Shown: piece by piece, positions 5,129 through 32,041 of the stretch
Layout of the letters: each line of letters starts with the position of its first letter
How positions within the stretch are numbered: the stretch's first letter is position 1
Origin: a virus
DNA: 55,654 nucleotides
Virus record (IMG/VR): IMGVR_UViG_3300024348_000044
Coordinates: 1 to 55,654 of that record
Strand: one strand, 5' to 3'
Made by a program: the position numbers and the translations under genes
The notes under the pieces: model-generated
Told to the model about the DNA's origin: nothing
The model's database searches: none
Seen by the model: only the letters and a program-made list of their open reading frames with translations

Positions 5129-5373
5129 CGCTGCCGATGAAAAAAGAGGGTCGGCGATTTGACGTTGACGCAGGAGAGGTTGGCATCGTCATCCGCAAGG
5201 GTGGCGATGTCGAAGTAATGATGAGTCTGAGTAATGAGATCGGCAAGAGCCAGTTGTTAGGGCTGGCCATTGCATGGAGTTGTGAAAGTGACGATTGGAA
5301 AACGTCAATGATGCGTCGGGCGCGTGAGCGCTTGATTCAGATCATGGACGAGGAAGGTATAAAATACGCGTGA
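5125..5373 (+). CDS. Hypothetical phage protein, TTG start
   Basis: An 82-residue protein with a TTG start in a TTGA overlap with the stop of the gene before; GGAGGG lies just upstream. An alternative ATG is at 5137. The middle contains a strand-rich segment (VGIVIRKGGDVEVMMSL) and the end is helical. Function unknown. Confidence 0.6.
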   Translation: MTLPMKKEGRRFDVDAGEVGIVIRKGGDVEVMMSLSNEIGKSQLLGLAIAWSCESDDWKTSMMRRARERLIQIMDEEGIKYA

Positions 5374-5376
5374 GTT

Positions 5377-5421
5377 GTGAGGGGGGCTTACATCTGGTGA
5401 GCAACCAGACACCCCCCTCAC
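5377..5421 (+). promoter_or_regulatory. Two-tier RNA hairpin in leader of HTH gene
   Basis: GTGAGGGGGG at 5377-5386 pairs perfectly with CCCCCCTCAC at 5412-5421. Inside it, TCTGGT at 5393-5398 pairs with ACCAGA at 5404-5409 around a five-base loop. No U-tract follows, so it is not a standard terminator. It begins right after the stop of the 82-residue gene and lies 125 bases before the likely start of the LuxR-HTH gene. Confidence 0.7.
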
Positions 5422-5546
5422 GGCGTGAGACACGCACAGCAAACGACTCAAACAGAGGCGATGCTGTAAAAACAATAAAGGAAAAAAGTGATGGCGTGAA
5501 CACTGAGAGTGAAGCGTTGGATCAGATTAGAATAAGGATAACTATT

Positions 5547-6002
5547 ATGAAAAAAGAAGAGGAAAATGTTTTGTTAAGTGAGCTTTGGGACAAGGTCGTT
5601 AGGCTTGAGGCCCAAGTAGAGCTGCTGACGCGCATGGTGAGCGGCGGCGCTGAGCCGCCAAGGGAGGCGAAGCCTGACGCCAACGACAGCGCCGTTAGTT
5701 TTTTGATGTCACACACGCCAAAGCAACACGCCGTGATGCAGATGCTGCGGGCGGGGTATGGAACAGACAGAATGGCAGAGGCTTTGGACGTCACTGAAAG
5801 CACAATAAAGGTGCATGTCAGGGGGGTCATGCAAAAGCATGGCCTGAAAACGAGGGCGCAAATTGTGATGCTGGCGGCACGCGCGGCGAGCGCGGTGTCG
5901 GAGGCCGAATACGAAGCGCTGAGTGGACTGCCGATGGACTGGGTTGAGCGCCCCAGTCACTACGCAGACGTCACCAATATGTTGAGGACCAAGTCACGGT
6001 AA
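5547..6002 (+). CDS. LuxR-type helix-turn-helix regulator
   Basis: A 151-residue protein if started at ATG 5547, which has AAGGA just upstream. The frame is open back to a GTG at 5370, but that stretch contains the strong 5377-5421 hairpin and has no family resemblance. A short coiled coil covers about residues 9-30. Residues 57-110 are a LuxR/GerE-type HTH, with TPKQ...M at its start and TESTIKVHV as recognition helix. No receiver or ligand domain is present, so it acts as a bare DNA-binding protein. It sits directly before the integrase and could govern the lysogeny switch or excision. Confidence 0.75.
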   Translation: MKKEEENVLLSELWDKVVRLEAQVELLTRMVSGGAEPPREAKPDANDSAVSFLMSHTPKQHAVMQMLRAGYGTDRMAEALDVTESTIKVHVRGVMQKHGLKTRAQIVMLAARAASAVSEAEYEALSGLPMDWVERPSHYADVTNMLRTKSR

Positions 6003-6027: not shown

Positions 6028-7092
6028 ATGGCACTGAAATTAAGCAAGAAGAATGGTCACTGGTATGTGGAGGGAAGCCTTTTAGGCACGCGCGTTCGCG
6101 AGTCTACACGGCTGCCCGACGCTGCCAGCTATAAGGGTATGGCAGAGAAGGTTCGGCTGCGGATCGAGAAGGACATTATCGAGAACCACGGACGGCCAGA
6201 GGTGCAGATACGCACGTTTGGCGACGCCGCTGCTGGGTATCTGGGGTGGCGCAAGGTGGAAGAGAGATACAATCGGGCGATGGAGCTGAATGTGAGGCGC
6301 TTCAACGATGACTGGGGCGAGGTGAAACTGGAGGAGATCACGCCAGCCAGCATCCAGGCATACATTGCGGCGACATATACGAGCGTGAAGCCTGGCACTG
6401 TGAGGCGCAACATGAGTTACTTTGCGGCGATCCTGAACTGGGCCAAGGAAAATGTGGATGGCTTTGGTGGTGTGAGAGTGCCGATGCCACGAGTCGACAA
6501 TGCGAGGGACATTCACTTCGATGAGGATCAGGCAGTCGCGTTTCTGGAATGGGTGCGGGACGCCTACCCTCACTTGTTCGGCCACTTCCTGACGCTGATT
6601 GATACAGGGGTGCGGCTGGGCGAGATGCTGGCGCTGCGGCCAACGAACTTTGGGGATGGCGTTCTGAAGGTGCGGCGTAAGCTGGCGCGTAAGAGTAAGA
6701 CGCTGACGCGGGACATACCTATGACGCCTGACATGGAGGTCTGGTCTGATTCGGTGAGGTGCTTGGGGGCCACGACGCCAATCTACTGGCGCAACGGCAC
6801 GACGGGTAAGACGTGGTGCAATATGCCAAGCGTAAGCACGACGTTGAATCGGGTTCTGAAGGAGGGATGCGGCAAGATGGGGCTGCCAAACAGCGGCGAA
6901 GGGGCGATGAGGGTGCATGATTTGCGGCACACATTTGCTTATCTGACAGCGAAAGCGGGTGCAGATTTGGGCGACTTGCAATACCTGATGGGACACTCTG
7001 ACATTAGTATGACCATGCGGTATCGGGGGTTTATTCAAAGCAGGGCAAGGACTTACGTTGGACGTGCAAGACGTGTCTTGGACGTTGCCTGA
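6028..7092 (+). CDS. int: Tyrosine recombinase (phage integrase)
   Basis: A 354-residue site-specific recombinase. An N-terminal arm-binding and core-binding SAM-like region covers about residues 1-165, followed by the catalytic domain. The catalytic set can be read: R196 (TGVRLGE), H297 and R300 (HDLRH), H323 (MGHS) and nucleophile Y332 (MRYRG). The ATG follows GAGGGAGACACGCAC. The likely attP lies immediately downstream, overlapping a tRNA 3' end. This is the main evidence that the phage is temperate. Confidence 0.95.
   Translation: MALKLSKKNGHWYVEGSLLGTRVRESTRLPDAASYKGMAEKVRLRIEKDIIENHGRPEVQIRTFGDAAAGYLGWRKVEERYNRAMELNVRRFNDDWGEVKLEEITPASIQAYIAATYTSVKPGTVRRNMSYFAAILNWAKENVDGFGGVRVPMPRVDNARDIHFDEDQAVAFLEWVRDAYPHLFGHFLTLIDTGVRLGEMLALRPTNFGDGVLKVRRKLARKSKTLTRDIPMTPDMEVWSDSVRCLGATTPIYWRNGTTGKTWCNMPSVSTTLNRVLKEGCGKMGLPNSGEGAMRVHDLRHTFAYLTAKAGADLGDLQYLMGHSDISMTMRYRGFIQSRARTYVGRARRVLDVA
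7061..7071 (+). repeat. Candidate integrase arm site, left copy
   Basis: GACGTGCAAGA is repeated exactly at 7363-7373, so the two copies flank the tRNA-like core. This copy lies inside the integrase 3' end and runs into a palindrome CAAGAC-GT-GTCTTG (7067-7080). Confidence 0.45.
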
Positions 7093-13794: not shown

Positions 13795-14295
13795 ATGGCA
13801 TTTTCATTTAACGAACTCAATCTTTCGGGCGTCGAGGTGCGTCAGTCTTCCATGCTACAGCCTGGAAAATATCTCTGCGTCGTGGAATCTGCCGCGTTGC
13901 GGGACACGCGACAAAATGGCAAGCAGGTTGAGGTGGTCTTGAAGGACACCGCTTCTGAAGCGACGATCAAGACTTGGATCAACGTCCACGTCCCGTCCTC
14001 GCATGATGCGACCCGCATTGGTCGTGAGCAGCTCAAAGCTCTTCTTGTCCACGGCGGCCACCCGAACCCCGACAAGCCAGGCGACGTGTCGTCCATGAGC
14101 GGTCTAAGGGTCGGAGTTGCTGTAAAGGCAGACAGCTACGAAAAAAACGGCGAGACGAAGACTGGTTCGGCGGTCCACTATTTCTTTGCCCCATCGGAGC
14201 TTGGCTCTCAGGCGGGTGCGGTGACTAAAGATAACTTTCAAGCGCCCCCAGCGACTGGCGGCGGTATGAAGTTGGACGACGACATCCCGTTTTGA
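13795..14295 (+). CDS. SSB-like protein (DUF669-type)
   Basis: A 166-residue protein. The body resembles DUF669 phage proteins, an OB-fold group (GKYLCVVESAALRDTRQNGKQVEVVLK). The C-terminus ends MKLDDDIPF, the acidic tip with terminal Phe used by SSB proteins to recruit partners. The gene starts 4 bp after the Sak4-like gene. Likely coats single-stranded DNA in replication and recombination. Confidence 0.8.
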   Translation: MAFSFNELNLSGVEVRQSSMLQPGKYLCVVESAALRDTRQNGKQVEVVLKDTASEATIKTWINVHVPSSHDATRIGREQLKALLVHGGHPNPDKPGDVSSMSGLRVGVAVKADSYEKNGETKTGSAVHYFFAPSELGSQAGAVTKDNFQAPPATGGGMKLDDDIPF

Positions 14296-17146: not shown

Positions 17147-20100
17147 TCAAAACCCGTTCTTGAAGCCAGAGCCGAAGCCTGACGAGAAGCTGGAGCCTGT
17201 GCCTGTGTTTGTCTTAGTCCCAGTTGGGTCGCCTCCAAGGTCTGCGGCGGTCTCGCGGAAGTCACCGACACCACCTAAGATCGGAACCCTGCCAGCTACA
17301 GTTCGCAGAGCTTGGCGAGTCTTGCCTGGGCTTGTCCCGCCAAACGCGGCCTCAGACACGCCGCCCGCCACGTCCATCGCGGCAGGGATAAGCGATGCGC
17401 TAGGCCCAAGGACGTAAGACATCATCCGCGTCTGCCCGTATGCACCGTTGTCAGCTTGCTCTGCGGCTTGGAAGAAGAAGTCGCCAAGCAGGCCGATGCC
17501 ACCGACAGCCATCATGGACTGAAGATACCAGCCGAGGGCGGCGTCAGTGTTGCTGTCTTCTGGAATGCCGACTGCTGCCGCAAGGCCAGGGAACATTTGG
17601 CTTAGCCTGCGCTCGCGGACCTCGCGCTGGCGGTTGTCATCGCCCCCACGACTTTGGACGACGTCCTTAACCGAGAGTGCGATAGCGCCAAACCCAACGC
17701 CTGCCGTCGCGAGGTAGGCCAGCGGCTTCATGTTGCCCTTCTTGGCTTCCCCAAACACGTCGTTTGTCAGGCGCATCATCATGAGAGGATACGACTTGAG
17801 CTGGAACACGACGCTGCCCCAAGGCGTGTTGGCCCACTGCGGGATGTCGTTCGAGCTTGGCATGAACAGAGACTCGTTGACGAACCTGAGTGTAGCAAGT
17901 TGCACAGCCTTATGGGCCGCTCCGTCCGAGCTGCTTACATCTAGGGCCACCGCGCCTGGCTTCATGAAGTCGTATGAAGCGCCTTGCCCAGTCAGGCCGT
18001 AGCGCTCTAGGAAGCGCATTGAGGTTCTGTAAGACGCAGAGTTGGTCTTGCCCTCACGCCGCAGGCGTGTCGCTTTCCCAAGCTCAGCACGCATTGCCTC
18101 ATACCCCACCATAGCGCCGACTTCGCGCTGGACGTTTGTCCAGCCAGTCAGCATGGTAAAGTTGAAGAAGGCGTTGCTGAACCTTTGCGAACCCTCGCCT
18201 CCGATCTCTGCCATCTTCTGGTGCAGCAGGTTGTCGATGCCAACCCCCAAGTTTTTGGAAGCGCGGCGGTAGTCTGGGTCAGCCATGTAGTTCTTCCAGG
18301 CTTTAGCAAATGCGCCAAAGTTGCCGCTGCGGATAAGAGGCAGCGCGGTATCTGGAATGGACGTCAACGTGGTGAAGCCGAGAAGCGTTACAGAGTTAAA
18401 CGCCTTGAGTCGGCGCGTTACGACGTGCGACATGCCTGTCCCGTTGCCCTCAATCGGACGACGGTTCAGAAGGTTGTTCATGCCCGCAATCTCCGACAGT
18501 GCCTGACGGCTGATCGGGCGGCTATTAAAGTCTGACATCGCATTGACGATGGCATCTACTCTCTTCAAGAACTGAGGCTCTGTGCGGAAGGCAGCATCCT
18601 GAAGATTGACCAGGATGTTCCGAGCTTGCGACTTGGAAGCCGCGTTCTTTTTATCTGCCAGAATGCGCTTTGCCTCTGTTAGCGCTCGCGTGATTGTCTC
18701 CTTGCTTGCCGCTATGCGCGGAACCGTCACGTCCTCCACTGCGGCGAAACCAGCTCGCGTGCCTTGCTTGGTGTTCGCGCTGATTTTGTTCTGAGACAGG
18801 ATGTCAGCGGCGGCCTCGATCCCGCCTTCAGCGACGCGCTCATAAGCCAGAAGTGCGTGACCGTTTACGCCAATGCGTTCAGTCAAGACGCGCTTTCGTG
18901 CGGTGCGGTCAAAATACTTCACAATCAGACCTTCAAGGTCGTTGACCATAAAGCCATCAATGTCCTTGTAGTCGCCTGGCTGAAGGCGAATGATCCGCGA
19001 GTAGAACGGGTCGGACATGACCGTGCGTGCTGAGTCAATCGCGTTCACAAAGTCGCCATCAGTGTCCAGCATACGCTGGACCATTTTCTCTACGCGGCCC
19101 TTGATAGCATCAACGCTTTCGCGGCCACTCGTAAAGTCTGGTGTCGCCTGCTCTCGCATGAACACGCGGGTCATAGACTCGATGAAGGCCGATGGGTTGT
19201 CGCGGATTGCCTCTATGTTCCACACTTGTGGCAAGTAGAAATCACTTTGGCCGCGAGCATCGCCAACGTGAATGCCCATGTCTTTCATGCGCTTCAGCTC
19301 TTCGTCGAACGACTTAACGATTTTGTAGGCCACAATACGCTCATCTGGTTTCAGGTTCGCGACTGCCGCTCTCCCCTGACGAATAGCATCCAAGATGCGG
19401 CGGTGGCTTGCAGGCTGCGCCACGCTGCCCCAGAACTTGTTGCGGTTCATCCAGCGCTTTGCGTAGTTGGTGGCATCTGGGAGGGTGTTCAGCGCGACGT
19501 CGCCTTTGCGTGTTCCGTTCAATACGGAAGCAAGGACGCGACCCATCTCGGCGGAGTGCGCTTCTTGCACTCCAGCGCCATTGGTCGGCTTGATGACATC
19601 AGCGAACCAGTTGGCACCCATCTTGCGAAGGCGCACTGAGTTTTCCGAGAAGAAGTTTCGGACGCTAGAAAACTCGTTCACGCGCTCGACGTCCGCGCTG
19701 GACAGCTCGCGGCCTTTCAGCATCTTGCGAACAGGCTTGATGATCGCCTCGGGGACGCCTGCGTTTTGCAAGTCGACAGTGATTGCGACCGACGCGCCTG
19801 AGCGGATCGGAGCGTTGTTGAATGACATTTCCTCAAGAACGTCGATGGAAGTCTTGCCGCCATAAGAAGCTGGGCGACCCTCCATCTCGGCAAAGTCATT
19901 GAACCGATCTTGCAGCGGGCGGACAGAACCCATGTCAAAGGCAACAGCGCCCTCGTCTGTGATAATGCTGTCGTAGCCGTTATCGCGAAGGTGTTGGTTG
20001 AGGCGGTCTCGTGCATTGACCCCGTCAATGGAGTCGCCATGCAGGTGCATGATCCCTCCGACATCGCTTGTAAGGGCTTCGTAGAGCTGGCGGCCAGAGA

Positions 20101-23100
20101 AACTGGACGGCAGGTTTTGTTGCAGGCTCTCTAGGCCACGCCGCGACACCAGCCCATTGTCCATCAGACTGACGAGGAGGTGGTCGATGTTTACGTTGCC
20201 AGCACCAAGCGTGTATTTTGACTTGCTGCTCACATCGAACGCGTCGCTCAAGCGTGCAAACACGGGCATTACGTCTTTGCTGTGTGCGTTCTGCGACGCT
20301 GCCTTTGCGATAGCCCAGTTTGCCTTGATTGACTGGAGGACTGATTGAATTTCATCTGGGCCAGCGCCGCGTGCCGCGACTTGCAGCAGGCGCTCGCGGA
20401 GCGAGATGATCTCTTTCGCTGCGTCCAGGCCAGCGCGTGCCATGTCAGGAGATGCCGCATCCTTAGAGATGCTGTTCTCAAGGTCGCTTTTGTATCCCAT
20501 AGCGTCGTAACCGTCATCGGCCTTGCGCTTCAGGTAAACACCACGCCCATACACACCAGACTCGGTTTGCGTGACCCCGCGAACTTCTCCTTCTTCAGTC
20601 ACGACATGATACACGCTGCGTGTCAGGTCTGCTTTGTCGTCAACGCCCAAGAACCTACGAGCGCCTTTGTCGGCGGAAGGCGACATGCTACCCACGATTT
20701 CGCGGGCCACACGCGCAGCAATAGACGGGTGGACGCTGTCTTTTGAGACAGAGAATGCTGCGTTGGCGAATGGGGTGCGGCGTCGCATTGCGGCGTAGAT
20801 GTCGCCGTAGGCCGCAAACATTACAAAGCCATCGCTGCTTGAGCCGTCGCGCACGTCGCGAAGGACGTGGATGACGCGGTCTTGGCTCTCTTTCACCAGA
20901 CGCGCGAGGGTCTCGCCTCCGTTCTGAGAGCGGAAGTTGTCCATCAGGAGCTGTCCGCGCAAAGACTTGTAGAGTAGAGCGTTGTGCATTTCACGGCCAG
21001 AGATGCCGCTGGCTTTGCCAATCTTTGAGAACGCGCCCTGCTCGCTAGGAGACATGATCGAATACCCGAAGTTGGAGACAAAATCGACTGCGTCCTCGAC
21101 GCGGCCCTGCTCAAGCGACGCGGCAACCGAGCGGAAGGCTCCTCTCATGTTGTTGTAAAGGTCGCTGTCTGTTGGCAGGGCGACGTCGTCTTGGAAATTG
21201 TCTAGGTCTGAGCGGCCAAGGATTTGGGCTGCATCGTATGGCGTCAGCATGAGAGGCTCAGCGCCAGTTAGCTCTGCTTCCGAATACAGGTGGTGCATCA
21301 TGTTTGTGAACAACCGCCCAATCTTGTCTTTGATCTTGGGGTTGCGATGCGTGACAAGGTTTGCGTAATCACGCAGGCCAGAGGGCAGACTTGCGTCCAA
21401 GCCGTCCTCGTCCAATACGCCGCTGTTCAAGGCGTCCGAAAGCTCTACCGCTTTGCTGACCTTTGGGCTGGTCACTGCCACTGGGTTCTCAACACCCCAG
21501 TTTTCGCGTGCGATGAGAGAGGTGATCTCAATCATCCGCGGGTCGCCCAGCATAAGCGCTTGGTTCAGAGCCTCGCGAGAGTTTGCTTCGCTCTGCCGTG
21601 CGAAAGCGACTATTTTTGCTTGGTCATCTGTCAGCTCAGCCATGACTTTCGTCAGGTCAAGGATCGGCATGTTGCGGCTGCGAAGCTCATTGGCAAGCTC
21701 CGCGCTGCGTGCGGCGTTTTCTTGCACATTGATGCCAGCGAGAAGCTCTGCGCTCGTCATCTTGCGTGGCGACTTGGCGTTGCCACGGCCCATGTCCAGA
21801 AGCTGTTCATCCGTCAGGTCGGACAGCACGTCGCGCAGCCCAGCTTGGTTGAGCGCATCCACAATAGACTGCGCCGCCTCGACTGTGGCTTTTTCCTGTG
21901 CGGCCTGAGCAGCGTTCAACCGCATGTAACGCTGGCTCTTCTGGTTGCCACGCGTTGTAAACGCGCTGCCGTCCAGTCTGACCATAACTCCAGCGCCGCG
22001 AGCGGATCGCGGCATTGCTTTGTTGAACTCTGACAGCTTCGACTTGATGTCTTTCTCCAGAGCGTAGAGGACGTTTCGGCCCAGGCGGCGAAGGTGATCC
22101 ATAGCTTCACGGTCCAGCCCATCGAGGCCAGCCTTGCGGATCGAGGCAGCAGCCATCGCGTCCGCTTCAAAAGCCCCGCCATCGAGCGACCGCGTCTGGT
22201 TTTCAATTGTGTCGTAGATGCTGTTCACGGCACTTACTTCCATCCCGTCTGGGAGTAGGGACGTGCGCCCATTCGCTACGGCTGAGCGGTTAGCCTCAAA
22301 GCCTGCGTCTTTCAACTGGTTGATAAAGGCGTAAAGGTCAGCCTGAGCAGCGTTCACTATGCGTGCAGTCGGGCTTCTGTCGGAAGAATACATCCGCGAG
22401 AAGCCGCTTGCGCCCTCACGGCCAGAGGTGGTTTTGTGCTGCGCGGTCCCAGTTTTGCCACCGTAGAGGCCATACAGTTTAGCCGCGACTTCTTCCAGCG
22501 ATGTCGCAAGGCGCAGACTGTCGCCGCTGGTTACTCCAACGTGCAGAGCTGCCAGTGCCTTGGCCCTGACCTCGTCAAGCTGCGCGAGCTGTCGGCCCTT
22601 GAACTGTGCCTGGTTCATCGTAGCGCCAGGGACAGACGACGGCTTTCCGTGGAGCTTGCCTACTTCTTCAAGCCCAGCGAAGCGGCTCACGCCGCCCGTC
22701 AGAAGGCCAGTCTCAGGGTCCACGTCAAGCGGGGGCATGTGCCGCATGAAGATTGGCAGAATGTCAGCGTCGATCTCGAAGTCTTCTTCACCGCGCACGA
22801 TACGGCGAAGCAAAGTGACCGCCATCTTGGCAACCTTTTTCCAGATCGACATGTCAATCTGGTTGGTCTTCATGGTGTATGCCATGAACTGGTTTGCAAA
22901 GAACTCGGCTGGAGACGCAAGCTCGTTATCGAATACAGCGCCAGAGCCGCGCTTTAGCGCAGCGAAATCTACACCAGACTCGTTCACGAACTTACGCATC
23001 GCCTGCCAGAAAGCGAGCTTGTCGCTCTCATCGAGGAGGTTTTGGTAAATCCAATGGCCAGTCTCGTGAACCAGAGTGGCGCTGGTTGGAAGATACTTGC

Positions 23101-26100
23101 GCCCGCTCGCGTCGACAGCGTTGAGCGCGTCGTCGCCCAGAATGATGCGACCAACATTGTCGTCGTTGATCTGCGTCCCTGGGTAGACTCGGCTCGCGCC
23201 ATTTTTGGCTGTTGGTGCAGCGGCTGGTGCATATGCAGGCCGACCTGTCGCAGTGGTCATCAGTGGCACGCGGCGGCTGTCCAGGCCAGAGACTCTCATC
23301 AGGAAGCCGATGGCTGACTCGATCTCTTCTGGTGCGCGAGACCCCATAATTTCTCTGAGCTGGCCTTCTGCCGACCTCATCGTCTGGTCGATCTTCTGAA
23401 CGCCTTGCGGGGCGTGGCGCTGCATCGCTTGGCCGACCTCGATGCGGTGAGCAATAAACTCATCCATCAGCTTTGGCGAACTGAGGCGGCCAAAGTCGAT
23501 GTTCTCAAGGCGCAAAAGGTAGTTGTGCAGGTCTGCCACCGAGCGCATTTCTGACAGCTTGACGCCCCACTCTGGGACTGGCGATTTGAACTCCGCCCCA
23601 GCCTCGATTGGCTTCTTGTGCAAAGCATCCAGAGACAGCGGCTTGTTCACACGCGCACGCGGAGACTGCGCCAAGGTTTGCGCTTGCGATGGCATGGCCT
23701 CAAAGTCCGAGCTGCGGACGGGAACCCTGCTGTTGAATGGCACCATGACGTCATCGCTGCTGAGCGGGCGGAACGTGCGCTGTGCGCCAGCAGAGCCTGA
23801 CTTGAACTGTGCATCGACGTAACCGATTGTGAACTCGTGGGAGGCAGACGCTTTGAGGACTTGCCCCAGGCTCTGCTTCCCGACTGGAACGCGCACGGTG
23901 CCAAATGTCTTTTGGTTCGGGTCTACAAACTGAACCGCCAGCCGCTTGCCAGCGGGGATGTCGAAGTTATCTTCCGTCTGAGACATCAAGTCGTCAGCAC
24001 GGCCCAAGACTTGAGGGTCATTGATCGGGTCAGAAATCTGCTCTGCGACCACTGATCTCTGCGCTTCTCCAGCGTAGGTGCCTGAGTCGTTCCAAGGAAC
24101 AGTGTATTCGTAGCCAATCTCGTCTGGCGTCTCGTCGAAGAGCTGCGTGCCAGCCTGCTTCTCCTTCACGCGACCGATGAACTCGCGAGCGATAAAGTCT
24201 CGGACTTGGTTGGCGTCTTGGAAAAGTCGGATGTCGCGGCTTACGTTCGGGCTGGCGTCGGCCAGCTTTTCAAACGTGACGCCAGCATCATCTGGCAGCC
24301 GCTTGATAACGCCAAGCTCGACGTCGTCAAAGCGGACGGACGTCCCAGTCTCGCCTTTGATGAACTTGAAGTCGTTGTTGACGTCGATCTCAATGCCATC
24401 AACCTTGCGGATGTATGGCGGGTATTTCGCGCTGGCGGGTGGCTGGTCTGGCTGCTGGTCGTTGGACTGGATGCGCTTCAGCTTAGACTGAAGGTCTGCC
24501 ACCATCGCCTGCAACTCAGCACGGCTTTTGCCCATGAGCGCTTCGCTGTTGATCGCTTCTTGCCCAGACTTTTCAGCCGAGGCCAAGCGCATTTGTTTGT
24601 CCGCGCTCAACTGTGCGGAAGCCAGGTCTTCGGCATACTCTGTGGGGTCGACAGGCTCTCCGTAAAAACGCGCCCAGTCTTCCTCTGTCATAACGCTGAT
24701 CTCGCCGTCGGAGAGGCGAGACTGCATGATGTTTTCTGCCATAGCATTGCGACGCGCCGCACGCTCTGCACGCAACGCAGACTTCATGGGCTTCATAGCG
24801 GACCGTGACGCGGCGTCTGCCGACCGAACCTCTGACTTCAGCTCGACTGTCAATCGCGCGAAGTCATCGCGCAGCTTTGCGTATGTCTCCAGTTCTTTTC
24901 CACTAAGGTCTTCAGCGCGACGGCCTGAGAGGAGATCGCGCATCTCGGCGGCGATGCGGTTGCCGCGAGCTGCAATCTCTTTGGTGCGGATCGTGTCGGC
25001 AAGGTTCTTGCGAACCTCTTCCTCCACGTTCGCAGAAGCCTCTTGCTCGGTGGAGCGAACGTATTGCTCCATCTTGCGCTTGATGGCCGCGACAGGGTTG
25101 CCGCTCGACGCCTCAATCTCGCCAGCCGTGACAAAGCCTTTCGACTTGGCTTTGTTGATCGTCTCGCTGAGCGCCGCCATTGCTTCGTCCAGCTTGCCAG
25201 ACAGCGTGTCTGCGGCCTCTGGCTTTGCATTGCGGTCCAGCGCACGCTGTGCGGACTTGACGCGATTGTCAGCCTTTTGGATGTCGTCGATGGCAGCCTC
25301 GTGTCCTACGACATCGAACGCTCTGCCAGTTGTGTCTGCTTCAAACGCGTCAATGGAGCGCTGACGCTTGATCGCATCAGCAGTCATTCGGTTCTTGCTG
25401 TTCTTTAGGCGCTGCGCTTCAAGGGTTTCCATGAGGCTTGTTACGATGGCGTTTTCGCGAACGGTCTGGCCATTCGCGTCTACGCTGCGGCGAGACCGTA
25501 GCAGCTTGCCAGTGTAGCCAAACGAGTTGGACTTGCGGAGGACTGACTGCACCGACGTAGGTGCGCCACCTTCAACAACTCGACCGTTCTGCGTGTAAGA
25601 GCCGTAGCCTTGGCGCTGCGTCTTGCCCATGTGGGTGGCGTTGCCCGCCGCACCCTCGCCAACGGAGATGTCGCGGGACAGGCGCACCTGGTTTGGCGCG
25701 TCTACCCGTTGCGCTTTACCTCGGCCAGCCTCGACGCGGGAGACACGGCGCTCCAACATGTCGATGGCCGTGCCGATTGGCACATCAGCGGGGATGCTGA
25801 AGGCAGCATACAGCTCGCGCTGCTTTGCACGAGCGTTGGCAGCAATGGCTTCCGCCTCAGTCTTCCCTTCACCAGCCTCAAAAAGAAACTGGGTGTAATT
25901 TTGCTTTGTGGTCTCCAGCTTGTCGCGAAGCTCAAGGAGCTTGACGCGCTCTTGGCCAGTCAAGTCTTCTTGATTGCGGCCAGACAGGAGCGAGCGCATC
26001 TCGCCCTGAACCTTCTCATCACGGCGAACTTTTTCGGAGCGCGTGACTTTGGGTCGCTCGCTCCGAGTTGTTGCAAACACGCCGTTCATTTCTTGGCGAG

Positions 26101-28948
26101 CCGTGCGAAGCGCCTCTTGTGCAGACTTCAGGCGCTGAATGTTTCCATCAACAACTGCGTTGTCGACAACAAAGGAGTTGCCCACGTTCCGTGCTTCAGT
26201 CTCTGCGCGCTCAATCGCGATCTTGCGTGCGACTTCGAGAGCTTTTGCCTCTGACATCTGCCCGCTTTGCAGCATGGCGTTGTAGACTTTTTCCTGCATA
26301 GCCGTGACGCGGGCCGCCGCGTCCGCTGGAAGCTCCGCAAGAATTTTATCCAGGCTCGACTTCGGTATCCCAGCGAACTGAAGGAAGCCGTCATCACTCA
26401 GGGCCAAGATGTCGGATGCGATAGCGCCAATCTCGTCGCCGTAAATGGACGAAATTTCGTCGACTACGTTCGCGAAGTTGTAGTTGTGCGCCTCTAGTCG
26501 CGGCAGGATCAACCCTTCGAGAGCCTGCTGGCGCACAAAGCCATAATAGGCGTCAGTGGCTTCGGCGCGGATTGCCTCTGGGAATGTGTCAATGGTGGCC
26601 AGCATACGGTTGGCGTGGAAAGCCATCGCTGGATCAGACGCAGCGACTGCATCAATGGTGTCGGAAAGGAACACGTCTACGACGGCTTTGCGGACAGCAT
26701 CACGCATGAACTTTGCACGGGCTTCACGGCCAGCACGCTTGCGTCCATCACCGAGGGTTCGCAAGACAGCTTTCATTTCTTTGGCGTCATACCCAAGACC
26801 AGTCAGAAACTCGACTTGGGTTTCGACTTTCCCCCCGTTGGCACCAGCAAGGAGTGCGTCAATGGCGTTGTATGCCTCACCCAAAGTGCGGGACAGGACG
26901 TCTTCCTGCGACAGCACTGGCTCCGAAGCAACCTCTGCAACAGTGTCGCTCGCATCCGCGCCGATCACGGTGCCGCTCTTGCTCGGCGTCGCCGCAACAA
27001 CGTCTGCGGCTTCGACGGAAACTTCAGGCTCGCTTGGCATTGCGTTGCGCTGTGCGTAGCGCTCTTCGATTGTTTGCGCCTCTGCACGCTTTGCTTTCGC
27101 AGAGCTGACGGCTTCGGAGCGGCGTGTATCAAGCTCTGATACCTGAGCCTCAAAATCGGCAGCAGCCTGCTCGTTGCCCACATTGCGCTGACGAGTGGCG
27201 CGGTTTTTTAGCCCCTTGATCTGGTTGCTAAGGGTCGCGACTTCTCCATCCAGCGCATCCGCTTCCGTTTGCAGCTTGGCGATTGAGTCGCGGTTGTCTA
27301 CGACAGGGGTCGGAGCTGCATCTGGCGCGTCAGCTACAGGCGCGACGTCAGTTGCGGCTTCGCCGCCAGTTGGGCGGAACTCTTGGCCTTTAAGACTTGG
27401 CATGATAGCCGCATCGCGAAGGCGCGTTGTCTCTGCCTCATAAGGAGTTTGCGCCCGCGTCGGAGAGCCGTCTGGCATTGTCCCCGTGCTTGCAGGCCCG
27501 TTCGGGTCGTATGTGATTTGCCGAACGGCTTCGACTTGGTTCGTGTCGATTTGCTGCGTGCGTTGTGCCGTCGCGACTGCGGCATCAACCCCGACATCTG
27601 GCGTGTCGATCTCTACCTGACCGTTGACGATTTTCTGGAAGCGCTCCCGAATGATCGCGGCGTCGCGCTCTGCGTTGTTCGCTGCGTCAGCGTAAACACG
27701 AGACTCCGACTGGATGCGGCTGACAGCCTTTGTGGCGTCGCCGCTTGTTGGAGCGCCAGTGCCTTCTGTAGAGATTTGCGCTGCACGCTGCCGAAACATC
27801 TCGGCCTGAGACTTACGCAATTCGTAGGCGCTGATCTGTTCGGCCAGTCGGTCTTGAGGTGCCTTGATGCGAGCGGGCGCTTGCTCGCCATCAGCCAACT
27901 GCACTGGAAGCTCTTGATTGATGCGGGCCTCGGCAGCAACGGTGTCGACTTCTGGATCGCTCAAGTTGCTGTGCAACGTCTTGATGTCGTCAAGAATGCT
28001 ATCGCCGCTTGGGTCCGTAATGCCACGCGCAGCAGCGCTTGCCGCTTGCTCGTCCACTCGCAGAGCGGCGCTGTCCGCTCGGCGGGTATCGACGCCTTGG
28101 CGCAGGCCAGCCTGGATGTTGTTCTGCATATTGCCAGTCGGAGCGCCAAGGATTGTCGAGTTGCGGCCTCCGAGGCCAGTGGTGCGGTTCATCGGGTTAG
28201 GCAGCACCGCGCCAGCAGCGCCCATGACGCCGCCGATGGGGGCGGAGATTGCAGCCCCAACAAGGCCAGCGGTCGCCGCCTGCGTCAGACTAACTTCGTC
28301 TTGAGTGCCAAGTGCCACGTTTCGGTTCTGGATGCCGTAATCAAAGCCTGCTTCCGTGATGCCAGACGCAAGCGCTTCGTCTCGCGCACCCGCCTTGACA
28401 GCCGCCGTGACGCCAATGCGTGTTGCCTCGCCGCGCCCCAGTCGGGCTGCACCAACGCGGGCAGCCGCGACCGCCGATTTTGCGGCAGCGCCACCAGAGC
28501 CGAAGCCGACAAGGTTGATTGGGTCGAGGACATTTGCGGCTACGTTTTCTGCAAGCCCAGCAACGCCAGAGCCACCTTCTTCGTAGAAGTTCGGGAGCTG
28601 GTCAAAGACTGTTTGGAGACGCGCCAGGCGCTGGCCCTGCATATCGCTTTGCGTGTTTACGTCGTAAAGGTCACGAGCAAGACTGATCGAGTTGTTGTTG
28701 CGCCAGCGGCGGTCAGACATAAAGTAGTCAACCGCTTCATCATGGTTGGAAAACGTCTTGCCGTCCCGCTGGCGGTAGTATTCCGAGATGTCGCTGAATG
28801 CTTCGGAGCTGTTGAGCGCGGCGCGGGCAGTATCAGTGTCCCCTACATTTCGCGCCCACCCCAGCGGGTCTGCGCTTGAGGCCGCTGGGGCCGATATAGA
28901 AGACAAAGATGCTTGAAATCTTTTGCGTGCGTCACGAATGCTTTCCAC
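17147..28948 (-). CDS. Giant polyvalent virion/ejection protein (3,933 aa)
   Basis: The largest gene, over a fifth of the genome. The N-terminal third is long helical and coiled-coil sequence, with repeated segments such as RNQEDLTGQERVKLLELRDKL and GRRAEDLSGKELETYAKLRDD. A zincin-type protease motif HETGH is at 1961-1965, with a Glu-containing helix ASPAEFFANQ about 48 residues later. Residues about 2778-3000 look like an ADP-ribosyltransferase of the polyvalent-protein type (VYHVVT, YGRGVYL, then GYDSIITDEG and VAFDMG). The C-terminus holds hydrophobic segments (about 3744-3762 and 3811-3826). Position after gp14- and gp15-like genes matches T7 gp16. No N4-type RNA polymerase motif was found. 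GTG start with GGAGA upstream. Confidence 0.82.
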   Translation of the reverse strand: MESIRDARKRFQASLSSISAPAASSADPLGWARNVGDTDTARAALNSSEAFSDISEYYRQRDGKTFSNHDEAVDYFMSDRRWRNNNSISLARDLYDVNTQSDMQGQRLARLQTVFDQLPNFYEEGGSGVAGLAENVAANVLDPINLVGFGSGGAAAKSAVAAARVGAARLGRGEATRIGVTAAVKAGARDEALASGITEAGFDYGIQNRNVALGTQDEVSLTQAATAGLVGAAISAPIGGVMGAAGAVLPNPMNRTTGLGGRNSTILGAPTGNMQNNIQAGLRQGVDTRRADSAALRVDEQAASAAARGITDPSGDSILDDIKTLHSNLSDPEVDTVAAEARINQELPVQLADGEQAPARIKAPQDRLAEQISAYELRKSQAEMFRQRAAQISTEGTGAPTSGDATKAVSRIQSESRVYADAANNAERDAAIIRERFQKIVNGQVEIDTPDVGVDAAVATAQRTQQIDTNQVEAVRQITYDPNGPASTGTMPDGSPTRAQTPYEAETTRLRDAAIMPSLKGQEFRPTGGEAATDVAPVADAPDAAPTPVVDNRDSIAKLQTEADALDGEVATLSNQIKGLKNRATRQRNVGNEQAAADFEAQVSELDTRRSEAVSSAKAKRAEAQTIEERYAQRNAMPSEPEVSVEAADVVAATPSKSGTVIGADASDTVAEVASEPVLSQEDVLSRTLGEAYNAIDALLAGANGGKVETQVEFLTGLGYDAKEMKAVLRTLGDGRKRAGREARAKFMRDAVRKAVVDVFLSDTIDAVAASDPAMAFHANRMLATIDTFPEAIRAEATDAYYGFVRQQALEGLILPRLEAHNYNFANVVDEISSIYGDEIGAIASDILALSDDGFLQFAGIPKSSLDKILAELPADAAARVTAMQEKVYNAMLQSGQMSEAKALEVARKIAIERAETEARNVGNSFVVDNAVVDGNIQRLKSAQEALRTARQEMNGVFATTRSERPKVTRSEKVRRDEKVQGEMRSLLSGRNQEDLTGQERVKLLELRDKLETTKQNYTQFLFEAGEGKTEAEAIAANARAKQRELYAAFSIPADVPIGTAIDMLERRVSRVEAGRGKAQRVDAPNQVRLSRDISVGEGAAGNATHMGKTQRQGYGSYTQNGRVVEGGAPTSVQSVLRKSNSFGYTGKLLRSRRSVDANGQTVRENAIVTSLMETLEAQRLKNSKNRMTADAIKRQRSIDAFEADTTGRAFDVVGHEAAIDDIQKADNRVKSAQRALDRNAKPEAADTLSGKLDEAMAALSETINKAKSKGFVTAGEIEASSGNPVAAIKRKMEQYVRSTEQEASANVEEEVRKNLADTIRTKEIAARGNRIAAEMRDLLSGRRAEDLSGKELETYAKLRDDFARLTVELKSEVRSADAASRSAMKPMKSALRAERAARRNAMAENIMQSRLSDGEISVMTEEDWARFYGEPVDPTEYAEDLASAQLSADKQMRLASAEKSGQEAINSEALMGKSRAELQAMVADLQSKLKRIQSNDQQPDQPPASAKYPPYIRKVDGIEIDVNNDFKFIKGETGTSVRFDDVELGVIKRLPDDAGVTFEKLADASPNVSRDIRLFQDANQVRDFIAREFIGRVKEKQAGTQLFDETPDEIGYEYTVPWNDSGTYAGEAQRSVVAEQISDPINDPQVLGRADDLMSQTEDNFDIPAGKRLAVQFVDPNQKTFGTVRVPVGKQSLGQVLKASASHEFTIGYVDAQFKSGSAGAQRTFRPLSSDDVMVPFNSRVPVRSSDFEAMPSQAQTLAQSPRARVNKPLSLDALHKKPIEAGAEFKSPVPEWGVKLSEMRSVADLHNYLLRLENIDFGRLSSPKLMDEFIAHRIEVGQAMQRHAPQGVQKIDQTMRSAEGQLREIMGSRAPEEIESAIGFLMRVSGLDSRRVPLMTTATGRPAYAPAAAPTAKNGASRVYPGTQINDDNVGRIILGDDALNAVDASGRKYLPTSATLVHETGHWIYQNLLDESDKLAFWQAMRKFVNESGVDFAALKRGSGAVFDNELASPAEFFANQFMAYTMKTNQIDMSIWKKVAKMAVTLLRRIVRGEEDFEIDADILPIFMRHMPPLDVDPETGLLTGGVSRFAGLEEVGKLHGKPSSVPGATMNQAQFKGRQLAQLDEVRAKALAALHVGVTSGDSLRLATSLEEVAAKLYGLYGGKTGTAQHKTTSGREGASGFSRMYSSDRSPTARIVNAAQADLYAFINQLKDAGFEANRSAVANGRTSLLPDGMEVSAVNSIYDTIENQTRSLDGGAFEADAMAAASIRKAGLDGLDREAMDHLRRLGRNVLYALEKDIKSKLSEFNKAMPRSARGAGVMVRLDGSAFTTRGNQKSQRYMRLNAAQAAQEKATVEAAQSIVDALNQAGLRDVLSDLTDEQLLDMGRGNAKSPRKMTSAELLAGINVQENAARSAELANELRSRNMPILDLTKVMAELTDDQAKIVAFARQSEANSREALNQALMLGDPRMIEITSLIARENWGVENPVAVTSPKVSKAVELSDALNSGVLDEDGLDASLPSGLRDYANLVTHRNPKIKDKIGRLFTNMMHHLYSEAELTGAEPLMLTPYDAAQILGRSDLDNFQDDVALPTDSDLYNNMRGAFRSVAASLEQGRVEDAVDFVSNFGYSIMSPSEQGAFSKIGKASGISGREMHNALLYKSLRGQLLMDNFRSQNGGETLARLVKESQDRVIHVLRDVRDGSSSDGFVMFAAYGDIYAAMRRRTPFANAAFSVSKDSVHPSIAARVAREIVGSMSPSADKGARRFLGVDDKADLTRSVYHVVTEEGEVRGVTQTESGVYGRGVYLKRKADDGYDAMGYKSDLENSISKDAASPDMARAGLDAAKEIISLRERLLQVAARGAGPDEIQSVLQSIKANWAIAKAASQNAHSKDVMPVFARLSDAFDVSSKSKYTLGAGNVNIDHLLVSLMDNGLVSRRGLESLQQNLPSSFSGRQLYEALTSDVGGIMHLHGDSIDGVNARDRLNQHLRDNGYDSIITDEGAVAFDMGSVRPLQDRFNDFAEMEGRPASYGGKTSIDVLEEMSFNNAPIRSGASVAITVDLQNAGVPEAIIKPVRKMLKGRELSSADVERVNEFSSVRNFFSENSVRLRKMGANWFADVIKPTNGAGVQEAHSAEMGRVLASVLNGTRKGDVALNTLPDATNYAKRWMNRNKFWGSVAQPASHRRILDAIRQGRAAVANLKPDERIVAYKIVKSFDEELKRMKDMGIHVGDARGQSDFYLPQVWNIEAIRDNPSAFIESMTRVFMREQATPDFTSGRESVDAIKGRVEKMVQRMLDTDGDFVNAIDSARTVMSDPFYSRIIRLQPGDYKDIDGFMVNDLEGLIVKYFDRTARKRVLTERIGVNGHALLAYERVAEGGIEAAADILSQNKISANTKQGTRAGFAAVEDVTVPRIAASKETITRALTEAKRILADKKNAASKSQARNILVNLQDAAFRTEPQFLKRVDAIVNAMSDFNSRPISRQALSEIAGMNNLLNRRPIEGNGTGMSHVVTRRLKAFNSVTLLGFTTLTSIPDTALPLIRSGNFGAFAKAWKNYMADPDYRRASKNLGVGIDNLLHQKMAEIGGEGSQRFSNAFFNFTMLTGWTNVQREVGAMVGYEAMRAELGKATRLRREGKTNSASYRTSMRFLERYGLTGQGASYDFMKPGAVALDVSSSDGAAHKAVQLATLRFVNESLFMPSSNDIPQWANTPWGSVVFQLKSYPLMMMRLTNDVFGEAKKGNMKPLAYLATAGVGFGAIALSVKDVVQSRGGDDNRQREVRERRLSQMFPGLAAAVGIPEDSNTDAALGWYLQSMMAVGGIGLLGDFFFQAAEQADNGAYGQTRMMSYVLGPSASLIPAAMDVAGGVSEAAFGGTSPGKTRQALRTVAGRVPILGGVGDFRETAADLGGDPTGTKTNTGTGSSFSSGFGSGFKNGF

Positions 28949-28998
28949 GTTCGGTTCTCCAGTTTCCGAAGTTATCGGGTGGAGGATACCGAACGTGG
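28945..28998 (-). promoter_or_regulatory. Nested hairpin enclosing RBS and start codon of the giant gene
   Basis: On the minus-strand mRNA, CCACGTTCGGT pairs perfectly with ACCGAACGTGG (11 bp). Inside, CTCCA pairs with TGGAG, and CCGA with TCGG. The GTG start codon (28948-28946) lies in the outer 3' arm and the GGAG ribosome site in the middle stem. The fold fills most of the 66-bp gap after the upstream gene. It should block initiation until opened by a ribosome, a protein or RNA processing. Confidence 0.8.
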
Positions 28999-29014
28999 GG
29001 TCTGCTAGTCGTCC

Positions 29015-32000
29015 TTACTGGGGGCTTACGTTTGCTGCTACACGCGGCGGAGCCGCGCGGCCAGTCTTCGCAAGACGCTGCCAAGCCAAAGGATCGCGGT
29101 ATAGCAAATCTCGCGTGCCTGGGTATGTTGCCAAGAACTCGGCTGCCTCACGGGTTTGCATGAAGTAACGCAGTTCGTTTACTTCGGCACGCTGAAGTCT
29201 TTCTTCTTCAGTCCCCGTAAAGTAACCCCATGCTCTTGCTAATGGGCTTCCGCTTGGAAGGTCTGTGTAGCCAGTTGAGATTCTGGAATTAAGCTGAAGA
29301 AGTTCAGTTTTCGCAGCGCTCAGTTTCGTCACGCCTAACATGGCGTTGATGTCGTTTGTAAACCCAGAGTTATTTGGGTCTTCTGGGTAAGCAGGTCCAA
29401 GTGGATCAACTGCTAGGCCGACGCTTGCTGGGGCGACGCTTGCTGGGGCCAAAGCGATTGGGCTGTTTAGGTCGGCCTGCGGCAACCCGCCAGGGCTTGT
29501 TTGGAACTTATATGTCCCTGGTGCCGCGCCTTGCGCGTTACCTGGAGCAAGCGTCACAGTCCCATCGCCATTGTCTTTTACGCCGCGCGAGACAGCTTTT
29601 GGAGTAGCGGCATTGAGGCGGTCTATGGCGGCTTGGACATTTGCTGCGGCATTCGTGAACATGCTATTCAAAGCAGCAGGGTTTGTCTGCGCGTAGTCCA
29701 AGACGTAGCGATAGCCACCTTCTCGGACGTTTTGCTCAACAGCCGCGAGCATTGCAGGGGCAGCAGCGAGAATGTCGTCGCGAATTGCAGCAATTTCGGT
29801 TGGGTCCGCGTCTGTCGGCAATAGTTCGATTGCAGCGATGGCTTGCTCGATGCCGCCGTTAATGTCACCAACTTGGCCATCGACAAAGTTAATAGCTGAC
29901 GTCCCGTATGTAACGGCTGCCCACTCTTCCCCGCCGACAAGACTAGCCTGGTTTATCGTCTCATATGCAAGAGCGTTTGCCTTGCTCGGCAGACCAAGCG
30001 CAGCAGCCAATTGCTCCGCTGCGACCGATTGCGCGTTTACGTCACCCTTCTCGATAGCATCTCGAATGTCTGGGTGGGTCTCTAAGTAATTGTATGCAGC
30101 ATTGACAACTGCGCCCGCTTGCATTGTGCCGAGATAGTAGTTTGTGTCGATTCCACCACCTACCAGTCTGTAGACAGCGCTTTTGGTGTCCTGGCCAATC
30201 AAGACTTGGGCAAGGCCGCGCGACTGGTTTGCTGTATTTGCGGATACTGCGGCGTTAGCCGCAGCAGCGACAGCAGCAGTGACGCGAACTGTCTCTGCCT
30301 TTGCCGCGCCGCGCATCATATTGTCAGCGCGCGCTAGATCAGCTTTGAACTCAGGGTCAGCGGTGCTGCTGTATGGGTCCATACCCAAAGACTCACGGTG
30401 GGAGTTCATGACGCCAAGGACTTCCGCTTCCCCGTTCGCCAAAGCTCTTACCATGTCATTCTTGAACGCTTGAACCCCTTCGGCAGAGTTTCCGTTTAGG
30501 TCATGGCCCAACACAAGCGCTGTCCACTGTGCGGCGTCGCGGTCGACTTCGTCGTTACGCGAGACGGATGCCATCCCCAAAACACTCGAATAAAGGCTCG
30601 CTGTCTCGGCAGGACTCATGGTGCTTATGTCAACTCCAAGAGTGGCGACAAAGGCAGCGGCCTCGTCAGTTGTCTGAACATTTTGAAGACGCACATTGGC
30701 AGCGCTGTTGTTGCTGATAATCTCGCCAATTTTGGTGTTGACGTCGTTGCGTGCCACGAGCGCAGCCGCTTGATATTCTTCTGCTCGGCTGGTGTCTCGG
30801 TTTGTGCGAGCTTGGCCAGCGGCGGTTTGGATATACGAGACCAAGTCAGCCAGTTCGGCATCAGTTACACGAGAGGTGTTTTGGCCAAACTGAGCGATGA
30901 AGGCTTCAGCTTGAGCTGGTGTTGTGATTGCACGAAGCGCAGCAGATTGGTCTGAGTCTGGACCCTGAAGAATAGTTGCCACGCTTGCTTTAATGTTGCC
31001 GACCGTAGTAGCCGATACCGCGCCTGCTTGTCGCGAAGCGCGAGCCGAGACTGCATTGGCGGCCAGATCGACCTGCTCGTCTGTCGGCATCGGGATGCCA
31101 GACGCAACAAGCTGAGCGCGAACCGTGTCGCGAAGGGCGGTCGGGTCTCGGCTTAACTCTAAAGCCGCTTGATTGCTTATGAGTGTTTCACCGTTAAACA
31201 ACGCAATAGCTTGCCGCTCGGCGACGGTTGTGTTGCCCTTCATAAATGCTTCAAATGCGGCCTTTGTCGCGGCTGCAACGGCAGGGTCTTTTCCGAGGTC
31301 AGAAACCGCAGCGGCGGCGTTATAAGCTGCAAGCGCAGCCACAGTGTCACCGCCCCCAGCGGTAGAGTATGCGTTGAAATTTTGAGTCAAGATGGCTGCT
31401 GCGGCCTGTGAGTCGTCGGTGTTTTTTTGGTTGTCTCTTGCAGTGAACAGGTTTGTGACGGCGGTTCGCTGGGCTGGTGGAAGATTAGCGATGAACGGCT
31501 GCGCGGCTTGCAGAGTTGTGATCCCATTGCCAGCCATCGTGGTCACAAAACTTGTAGCGCTTGTGTTCGTGTTGGCGTTAATCATGCCAGGAAGAAGGGG
31601 CGAAAACGCAGAAGTGTCTTTGATGCCAAACTGCCTTAGCGCCATTTGAGACAGTTGGGTTTGACCCGCCTCTGATGTTAGGTCGACACCAGCGTTTGCG
31701 AGCGTCGTGACCAATCCTGTGTATCCTTTAAACTCGGCCTCTGCGCGAGCAAGACTAGCCGCCCTTGCAGCGTTGGCAGCAGCCGCTTCGCGGCGTGCAA
31801 CCTCTACGTTGATTTGGCGAGCTTGTGATTGAACGGCAGTCTCGCTCGGCAAGAACGCGTTCATGTAAGGATTGGTCGCAAGGTTGTTGCGGAACTTTTC
31901 AAAGTCTGCGGCGTTCACGCGAGCGCCAGACGCCTTCTGCGTTTCTACAAAAGCGTTGTAGGCTTGAAGGTTTTCGCTGCGAAGTTTTCGCTGCCGATCT

Positions 32001-32041
32001 ACTTCAGAGTTGCGAGCATTAACAAAGTTTGCACCGAGCAT
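29015..32041 (-). CDS. Internal virion / ejection protein, gp15-like
   Basis: A 1,008-residue, Ala-rich, almost fully helical protein without signal peptide. Composition and length fit the second inner-core protein of T7-like podoviruses, which forms a tube for DNA ejection. It sits between a 295-residue gp14-like gene and the giant gp16-like gene, in the T7 order. Sequence similarity to T7 gp15 itself is not evident by eye, so the role is inferred from context. It starts 3 bp after the gp14-like stop. Confidence 0.65.
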   Translation of the reverse strand: MLGANFVNARNSEVDRQRKLRSENLQAYNAFVETQKASGARVNAADFEKFRNNLATNPYMNAFLPSETAVQSQARQINVEVARREAAAANAARAASLARAEAEFKGYTGLVTTLANAGVDLTSEAGQTQLSQMALRQFGIKDTSAFSPLLPGMINANTNTSATSFVTTMAGNGITTLQAAQPFIANLPPAQRTAVTNLFTARDNQKNTDDSQAAAAILTQNFNAYSTAGGGDTVAALAAYNAAAAVSDLGKDPAVAAATKAAFEAFMKGNTTVAERQAIALFNGETLISNQAALELSRDPTALRDTVRAQLVASGIPMPTDEQVDLAANAVSARASRQAGAVSATTVGNIKASVATILQGPDSDQSAALRAITTPAQAEAFIAQFGQNTSRVTDAELADLVSYIQTAAGQARTNRDTSRAEEYQAAALVARNDVNTKIGEIISNNSAANVRLQNVQTTDEAAAFVATLGVDISTMSPAETASLYSSVLGMASVSRNDEVDRDAAQWTALVLGHDLNGNSAEGVQAFKNDMVRALANGEAEVLGVMNSHRESLGMDPYSSTADPEFKADLARADNMMRGAAKAETVRVTAAVAAAANAAVSANTANQSRGLAQVLIGQDTKSAVYRLVGGGIDTNYYLGTMQAGAVVNAAYNYLETHPDIRDAIEKGDVNAQSVAAEQLAAALGLPSKANALAYETINQASLVGGEEWAAVTYGTSAINFVDGQVGDINGGIEQAIAAIELLPTDADPTEIAAIRDDILAAAPAMLAAVEQNVREGGYRYVLDYAQTNPAALNSMFTNAAANVQAAIDRLNAATPKAVSRGVKDNGDGTVTLAPGNAQGAAPGTYKFQTSPGGLPQADLNSPIALAPASVAPASVGLAVDPLGPAYPEDPNNSGFTNDINAMLGVTKLSAAKTELLQLNSRISTGYTDLPSGSPLARAWGYFTGTEEERLQRAEVNELRYFMQTREAAEFLATYPGTRDLLYRDPLAWQRLAKTGRAAPPRVAANVSPQ

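Follow-up and report, generated by a model that had tools for sequence, protein, structure and literature searches.

In phage T4, genes e, soc, 49, and I-TevI carry readthrough locks, in which a late promoter is located in the 5′-strand segment (PMC3014915; McPheeters et al., 1986, cited there). A recently described temperate phage family is defined by CRP-810 (PMC11288001); that paper, when searched for the words promoter, hairpin, terminator, and frameshift, returned none of them. Here, a viral DNA of 55,654 nucleotides (IMG/VR record IMGVR_UViG_3300024348_000044, positions 1 to 55,654; the whole stretch is referred to as the window) was analyzed at a nested hairpin lying ahead of the GTG-started gene of a giant, 3933-residue virion protein. 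At a probability of about three in four, the hairpin is best explained as part of a combined element, in which a late promoter is joined to a readthrough lock like those of the four T4 genes, and which would act on this ~12-kb ejection-protein gene. As judged from sequence comparison, the arrangement recurs across a large marine phage family.

Results

The original prediction claimed nested stems of 11, 5, and 4 bp that place the start codon of a 3933-residue gene in the outer stem and its GGAG in the middle stem, and all of these were present in the window. On the minus strand, a perfect 11-bp outer stem (28998–28988 with 28955–28945) encloses a middle stem of CTCCA (28984–28980) paired with TGGAG (28961–28957) and a 4-bp inner stem (CCGA/TCGG); GTG (28948–28946) lies inside the outer 3′ arm, GGAG (28960–28957) lies inside the middle stem, and the open reading frame of 3933 codons runs from 28948 to 17147. 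The features of the locus, in the direction of transcription, are as follows.

29015–32041, minus strand: upstream late gene (1008 residues), the readthrough mRNA of which would bear the lock; its stop codon TAA (29017–29015) abuts the GGACGAC box
29008–29014, minus strand: GGACGAC box, a putative -35-like or activator box
28988–28998, minus strand: 5′ arm of the outer stem, CCACGTTCGGT, upstream of the predicted transcription start and so expected only on readthrough RNA
28983–28988, minus strand: TATCCT, putative -10 box (TAnnnT), 19 nt after the GGACGAC box
28980–28984, minus strand: CTCCA, anti-Shine-Dalgarno strand of the middle stem, upstream of the predicted start
28976 (±3 nt), minus strand: predicted transcription start, placed from the -10 position at 7 nt after the -10 box, with a leader of ~28 nt
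28957–28960, minus strand: GGAG, Shine-Dalgarno sequence of the giant gene
28950–28970, minus strand: competing local hairpin, TTCGG AAACTGGAGAA CCGAA, the 11-nt loop of which holds GGAG; it and the long hairpin are mutually exclusive
28945–28955, minus strand: 3′ arm of the outer stem, ACCGAACGTGG, including the GTG start
17147–28948, minus strand: giant virion (putative ejection) protein gene, 3933 residues, GTG start

A 121-nt RNA covering the hairpin folds to -37.7 kcal/mol, compared with -25.4 ± 3.3 kcal/mol for dinucleotide shuffles (z = -3.7); none of the 200 shuffles was as good, so the folding comparison proposed along with the stems came out in their favor. In the near-identical relative L001, all stem bases are kept, and the sole difference within the hairpin, C to T at 28978, is unpaired.

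Opening costs were computed on the readthrough RNA and on the RNA started at the predicted promoter. In the window, opening of GGAG requires 7.1 kcal/mol on the readthrough RNA and 0.5 kcal/mol on the promoter RNA, and opening from GGAG through GTG requires 21.0 and 5.6 kcal/mol, respectively. When the start was shifted, any start downstream of the -10 box lost the lock, and for starts at or past 28982 the residual cost was 1.9 kcal/mol or less, with most of the lock gone.

Relatives of the locus were collected in several ways. A blastn search of the hairpin region against INPHARED found no match, the upstream protein alone yielded 1 near-identical locus, and the giant protein yielded 3, while portal and stabilisation-protein alignments yielded 160 IMG/VR loci. 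About 20 distinct lineages, obtained by protein similarity only, cover the giant-gene start and the upstream gap. The gene junction is kept in all of these protein-derived lineages, and most of them keep two blocks, one at the upstream stop codon (GGAYGAY) and one ahead of the start codon (AAACTGGAG). A pattern scan extended the set to 74 unique elements, of which the downstream proteins form one homology group, and 50 representatives at <80% identity were used. In the loci fetched, the paired motif occurs essentially once per genome, ahead of the giant gene.

The GGACGAC box sits directly after the upstream stop codon in the window, and 2–6 nt past it in most relatives. Within 17–20 nt of the box, TAnnnT was found in 40 of the 50 elements, all at 18 or 19 nt, compared with 4.6 ± 2.0 by chance and at most 13 in 2000 shuffles. 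GGAYGAY is present in 19 of 20 protein-derived lineages, the lineage without it being L166, and all 19 have TAnnnT exactly 18–19 nt downstream. Outside the element, 87 of the 172 intergenic GGACGAC sites have TAnnnT at 17–20 nt, vs. 17 and 14 at control offsets, and the box is biased to the late strand (377 vs. 49), a bias to which codon usage may contribute. In the window, GGACGAC recurs before (42717) and after (41256) the capsid gene. Given this recurrence of GGACGAC with TAnnnT at other late-gene boundaries, GGACGAC-N18/19-TAnnnT is read as the late promoter of the CRP-810-type family, its activity and start site being predicted from the motif positions. Literature searches for the GGACGAC motif found nothing relevant.

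The lock was then quantified over the 50 elements. The mean cost of opening GGAG was 6.9 kcal/mol on readthrough RNA, 1.2 kcal/mol on promoter RNA, and 2.4 kcal/mol when the upstream segment was shuffled (Wilcoxon p 2e-12 and 7e-11), and the readthrough–promoter difference exceeded 2 kcal/mol in 39 of them. In contrast, 47 other late promoters of the same phages, used as an internal control, gave 2.1, 2.0, and 2.4 kcal/mol for readthrough, promoter, and shuffled RNAs, respectively. These results indicated that the lock is specific to the giant gene and not general to the promoter.

Pairing of the two hairpin strands was also compared among relatives. The upstream arm pairs with its own Shine-Dalgarno-to-start strand at a mean of -14.1 kcal/mol, while swapped partners gave -11.5 and shuffled strands -8.2 kcal/mol. 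The own-partner fit was better than all 5000 swaps (z = -8.5), and persisted with GC-matched swapping (z = -5.8) and in the 12 most divergent lineages alone (z = -3.2); the Watson–Crick-only pairing count gave z = 6.6. The compensatory changes expected in the stems of related phages are thus borne out, since the arms fit their own partners over swapped ones across 50 divergent elements.

The local hairpin, a 3–6-bp stem enclosing the 11-nt GGAG loop, covaries as well (flank swap z = 5.8). In the 39 elements sharing one flank register (the other 11, duplicates or shifted in register, were excluded), double-sided changes occur at all five pairs, with 24 double-changed cells compared with 11.2 in shuffles (0/500). 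Because versions of the hairpin slid by +2 and +3 also give many double-changed cells (22 and 18), the stronger numbers are the percentage paired (74.9% vs. at most 41.5 for slid versions) and the covariation score (0.299 vs. at most 0.193). In the loop, AAACUGGAGWA, 9 bases are invariant in the 39 aligned elements, many of which were picked by a pattern that included the loop.

Upstream of the hairpin, the window and L001 differ at ~7 positions in ~7 kb, and just past it at ~17% of bases. This abrupt divergence points to a recombination joint at the element (window 28920–28978).

The giant gene is separated from the upstream gene by 66 nt. The N-terminal ~250 residues of its product resemble “internal virion protein D” of pelagiphages and Roseobacter phage CRP-810, a similarity by which the product is identified as a putative ejection protein, and the C-terminal 880 residues share 36% identity with CRP-810 gp34; comparison of the full protein with PHROG (at 0.001) and Pfam (at the curated cut-offs) gave no family. 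Residues 1952–2073 contain an HExxH metalloprotease-like motif (VHETGHWIY), and HExxH is also found in CRP-810 gp35. The gene is a single 3933-residue frame in the window and three overlapping open reading frames in CRP-810 (gp34–gp36; L007 6571–16211), for which sequencing errors, frameshifting, or true splitting are candidate causes. With 68, 64, and 57% identity to CRP-810 in the portal, major capsid, and terminase proteins, respectively, and the same gene order, the window phage falls within the CRP-810-type family.

A LuxR/GerE-type regulator is encoded at window 5370–6002 (plus strand), adjoining an integrase (6028–7092), and is found in 6 of 10 related records, CRP-810 among them; by inference only, it is a candidate activator of the late promoters. 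In L166, which lacks the box, a strong hairpin and then a T-rich stretch (GGCCACGGTGGCAATACCACCGTGGCCTTCTTCTT) stand instead at ~14052–14110, ahead of the same AAACTGGAGTA loop. The portal promoter in L007 (2709, reverse strand numbering; near 39985 in plus coordinates) and L084 (674) reads TATTCT-TATCCC-ATG, and a leaderless portal mRNA is therefore predicted. An intrinsic terminator comes immediately after a late promoter in ~20 relatives, its 5′ arm starting 0–2 nt past the -10 box; such sites include window 41256–41200 (minus strand), just after the capsid gene, L015 16205, L034 11381, L094 3141, L100 2761, L142 8090, and others. A start 7 nt after the -10 box would delete most of the terminator arm, so a readthrough block at the transcription level is possible, and the start-inside-hairpin logic may act there on transcriptional readthrough.

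Discussion

In the proposed mechanism, mRNA from the upstream late genes would have both hairpin strands, with GGAG and GTG buried and the giant gene hardly translated. Polymerase at GGACGAC-N19-TATCCT would start near 28976, inside the hairpin, and since the -10 box is within the hairpin 5′ strand, the promoter-started RNA would be made without both anti-Shine-Dalgarno arms. Its leader would form at most the small hairpin with GGAG in the loop, on which ribosomes could load. The giant protein would be translated only from its own promoter, uncoupled from the heavy capsid and tail-gene transcription upstream, and the purpose is probably a low copy number or the timing of this protein. That the ribosome site and the start codon are sequestered, as originally proposed, is supported by the folding, the covariation in 50 elements, and the control promoters, whereas the proposed opening by coupling, a protein, or cleavage is dispensable, because the transcript from the embedded promoter simply comes without the blocking strand; no ligand or coupling is needed for the lock to open.

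Several observations weigh against this reading. The lock is weak or missing (readthrough minus promoter <2 kcal/mol) in 11 of the 50 elements and weak or absent in 8 of the 20 protein-derived lineages, in which the promoter is kept except in L166. Relatives with intact genes and no pairing, which the original prediction regarded as telling against it, are thus found in a minority of lineages, while pairing is kept in most; the lock is therefore common, not universal, and with the promoter in 19 of 20 lineages the hairpin is an added layer on a conserved promoter. The counts of G–U vs. A–C do not separate RNA-level from DNA-level pairing, and the loop AAACUGGAGWA is conserved beyond what the promoter-lock model requires. 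Further, the 50-element set is mostly pattern-found, which inflates motif conservation and leaves only the 20 protein-derived lineages free of that effect, and the shuffle statistics are optimistic owing to the relatedness of the sequences.

The conserved loop bears on the idea of a regulated RNA switch, in which a phage or host protein or a metabolite binds AAACUGGAGWA and toggles two exclusive structures on one mRNA. Covariation in both mutually exclusive helices would fit such a switch, as would the 9 invariant loop bases, kept even in the box-less L166; however, Rfam 15 gave no match at the gathering score, variant loops occur (GTAATGGAG in L105/L108), the loop holds the Shine-Dalgarno sequence itself, and the promoter model accounts for the long helix without a ligand, and we regard the switch as quite unlikely. 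Also unlikely is a combined form, a bistable ligand- or protein-controlled switch that has the loop as a dedicated binding site and works jointly with the promoter-embedded lock to meter synthesis of the ejected protein. Translational coupling, or a constitutive low-rate hairpin, opened by ribosomes ending the upstream gene, would suit an upstream stop codon that close and a box near the stop in most relatives, but the 5′ arm in the window starts 17 nt past the stop, farther than a terminating ribosome is expected to reach, the stop-to-start distance exceeds the usual reinitiation range, and the fixed-spacing promoter motif is left unexplained, which makes this explanation very improbable.

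That the repeat works as DNA, as a repressor or activator operator at the promoter with incidental RNA pairing, has only a very slim chance. It would agree with the overlap with the promoter, the phage-encoded LuxR-type regulator, and the non-discriminating G–U vs. A–C count; yet the arm sequence is free to vary among lineages while its pairing with its own Shine-Dalgarno strand is kept, unlike a single-protein operator, and other promoters with the same box have no comparable fit between upstream segment and Shine-Dalgarno sequence. A long near-perfect intergenic stem might also be an mRNA processing site (for RNase III or similar) or a terminator, but this is hardly to be credited, as the stem is short or interrupted in many relatives, AAAGC and not a U-run follows it, and the terminator scan did not list it. 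Two further candidates were rejected: a hammerhead or other ribozyme (GGACGAC…GAAAC), where the bases at core positions misfit and GAAA is lost in several relatives, and CsrA-type binding to a pair of GGA motifs ~50 nt apart, since a promoter element that recurs elsewhere is the better explanation of the box.

As for described systems, no relevant account of an ejection-protein lock came up in the literature searches; the statement that no such switch has been described for a phage ejection protein holds as far as searched, although the mechanism has a textbook T4 precedent (PMC3014915). With regard to T7 gp16/internal virion protein D, the giant protein is like proteins annotated as internal virion protein D in its N-terminal ~250 residues, and is ~3 times as long as the 1265-residue HTVC019P homologue (length from coordinates). 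CRP-810 carries the box, the -10, the lock, and the GTG start, as the window does. With a candidate late-promoter motif for the CRP-810-type family, the transcription programme of that family can be tested in a cultured phage–host pair.

The T4 locks resemble the locus, as computed for the window, in that long transcripts from upstream hide the Shine-Dalgarno sequence and/or start codon in a helix and the promoter-started RNA has no blocking strand, and also in having a late promoter within the 5′-strand segment, the -10 box of the window (28988–28983) overlapping the 5′ arms. However, the phages are unrelated, and the promoter here is GGACGAC-N18/19-TAnnnT, while that of T4 is TATAAATA; this T4 late promoter is not matched, and the locus therefore works like the T4 set and is not a member of it. 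In addition, the T4 locks separate early from late transcription, whereas here a giant virion gene within the late operon would be separated as late from late. If this is true, an abundant marine phage family arrived independently at the T4 gene e trick and put it to a different use, the uncoupling of a ~12-kb virion gene from strong neighbour transcription within one late operon.

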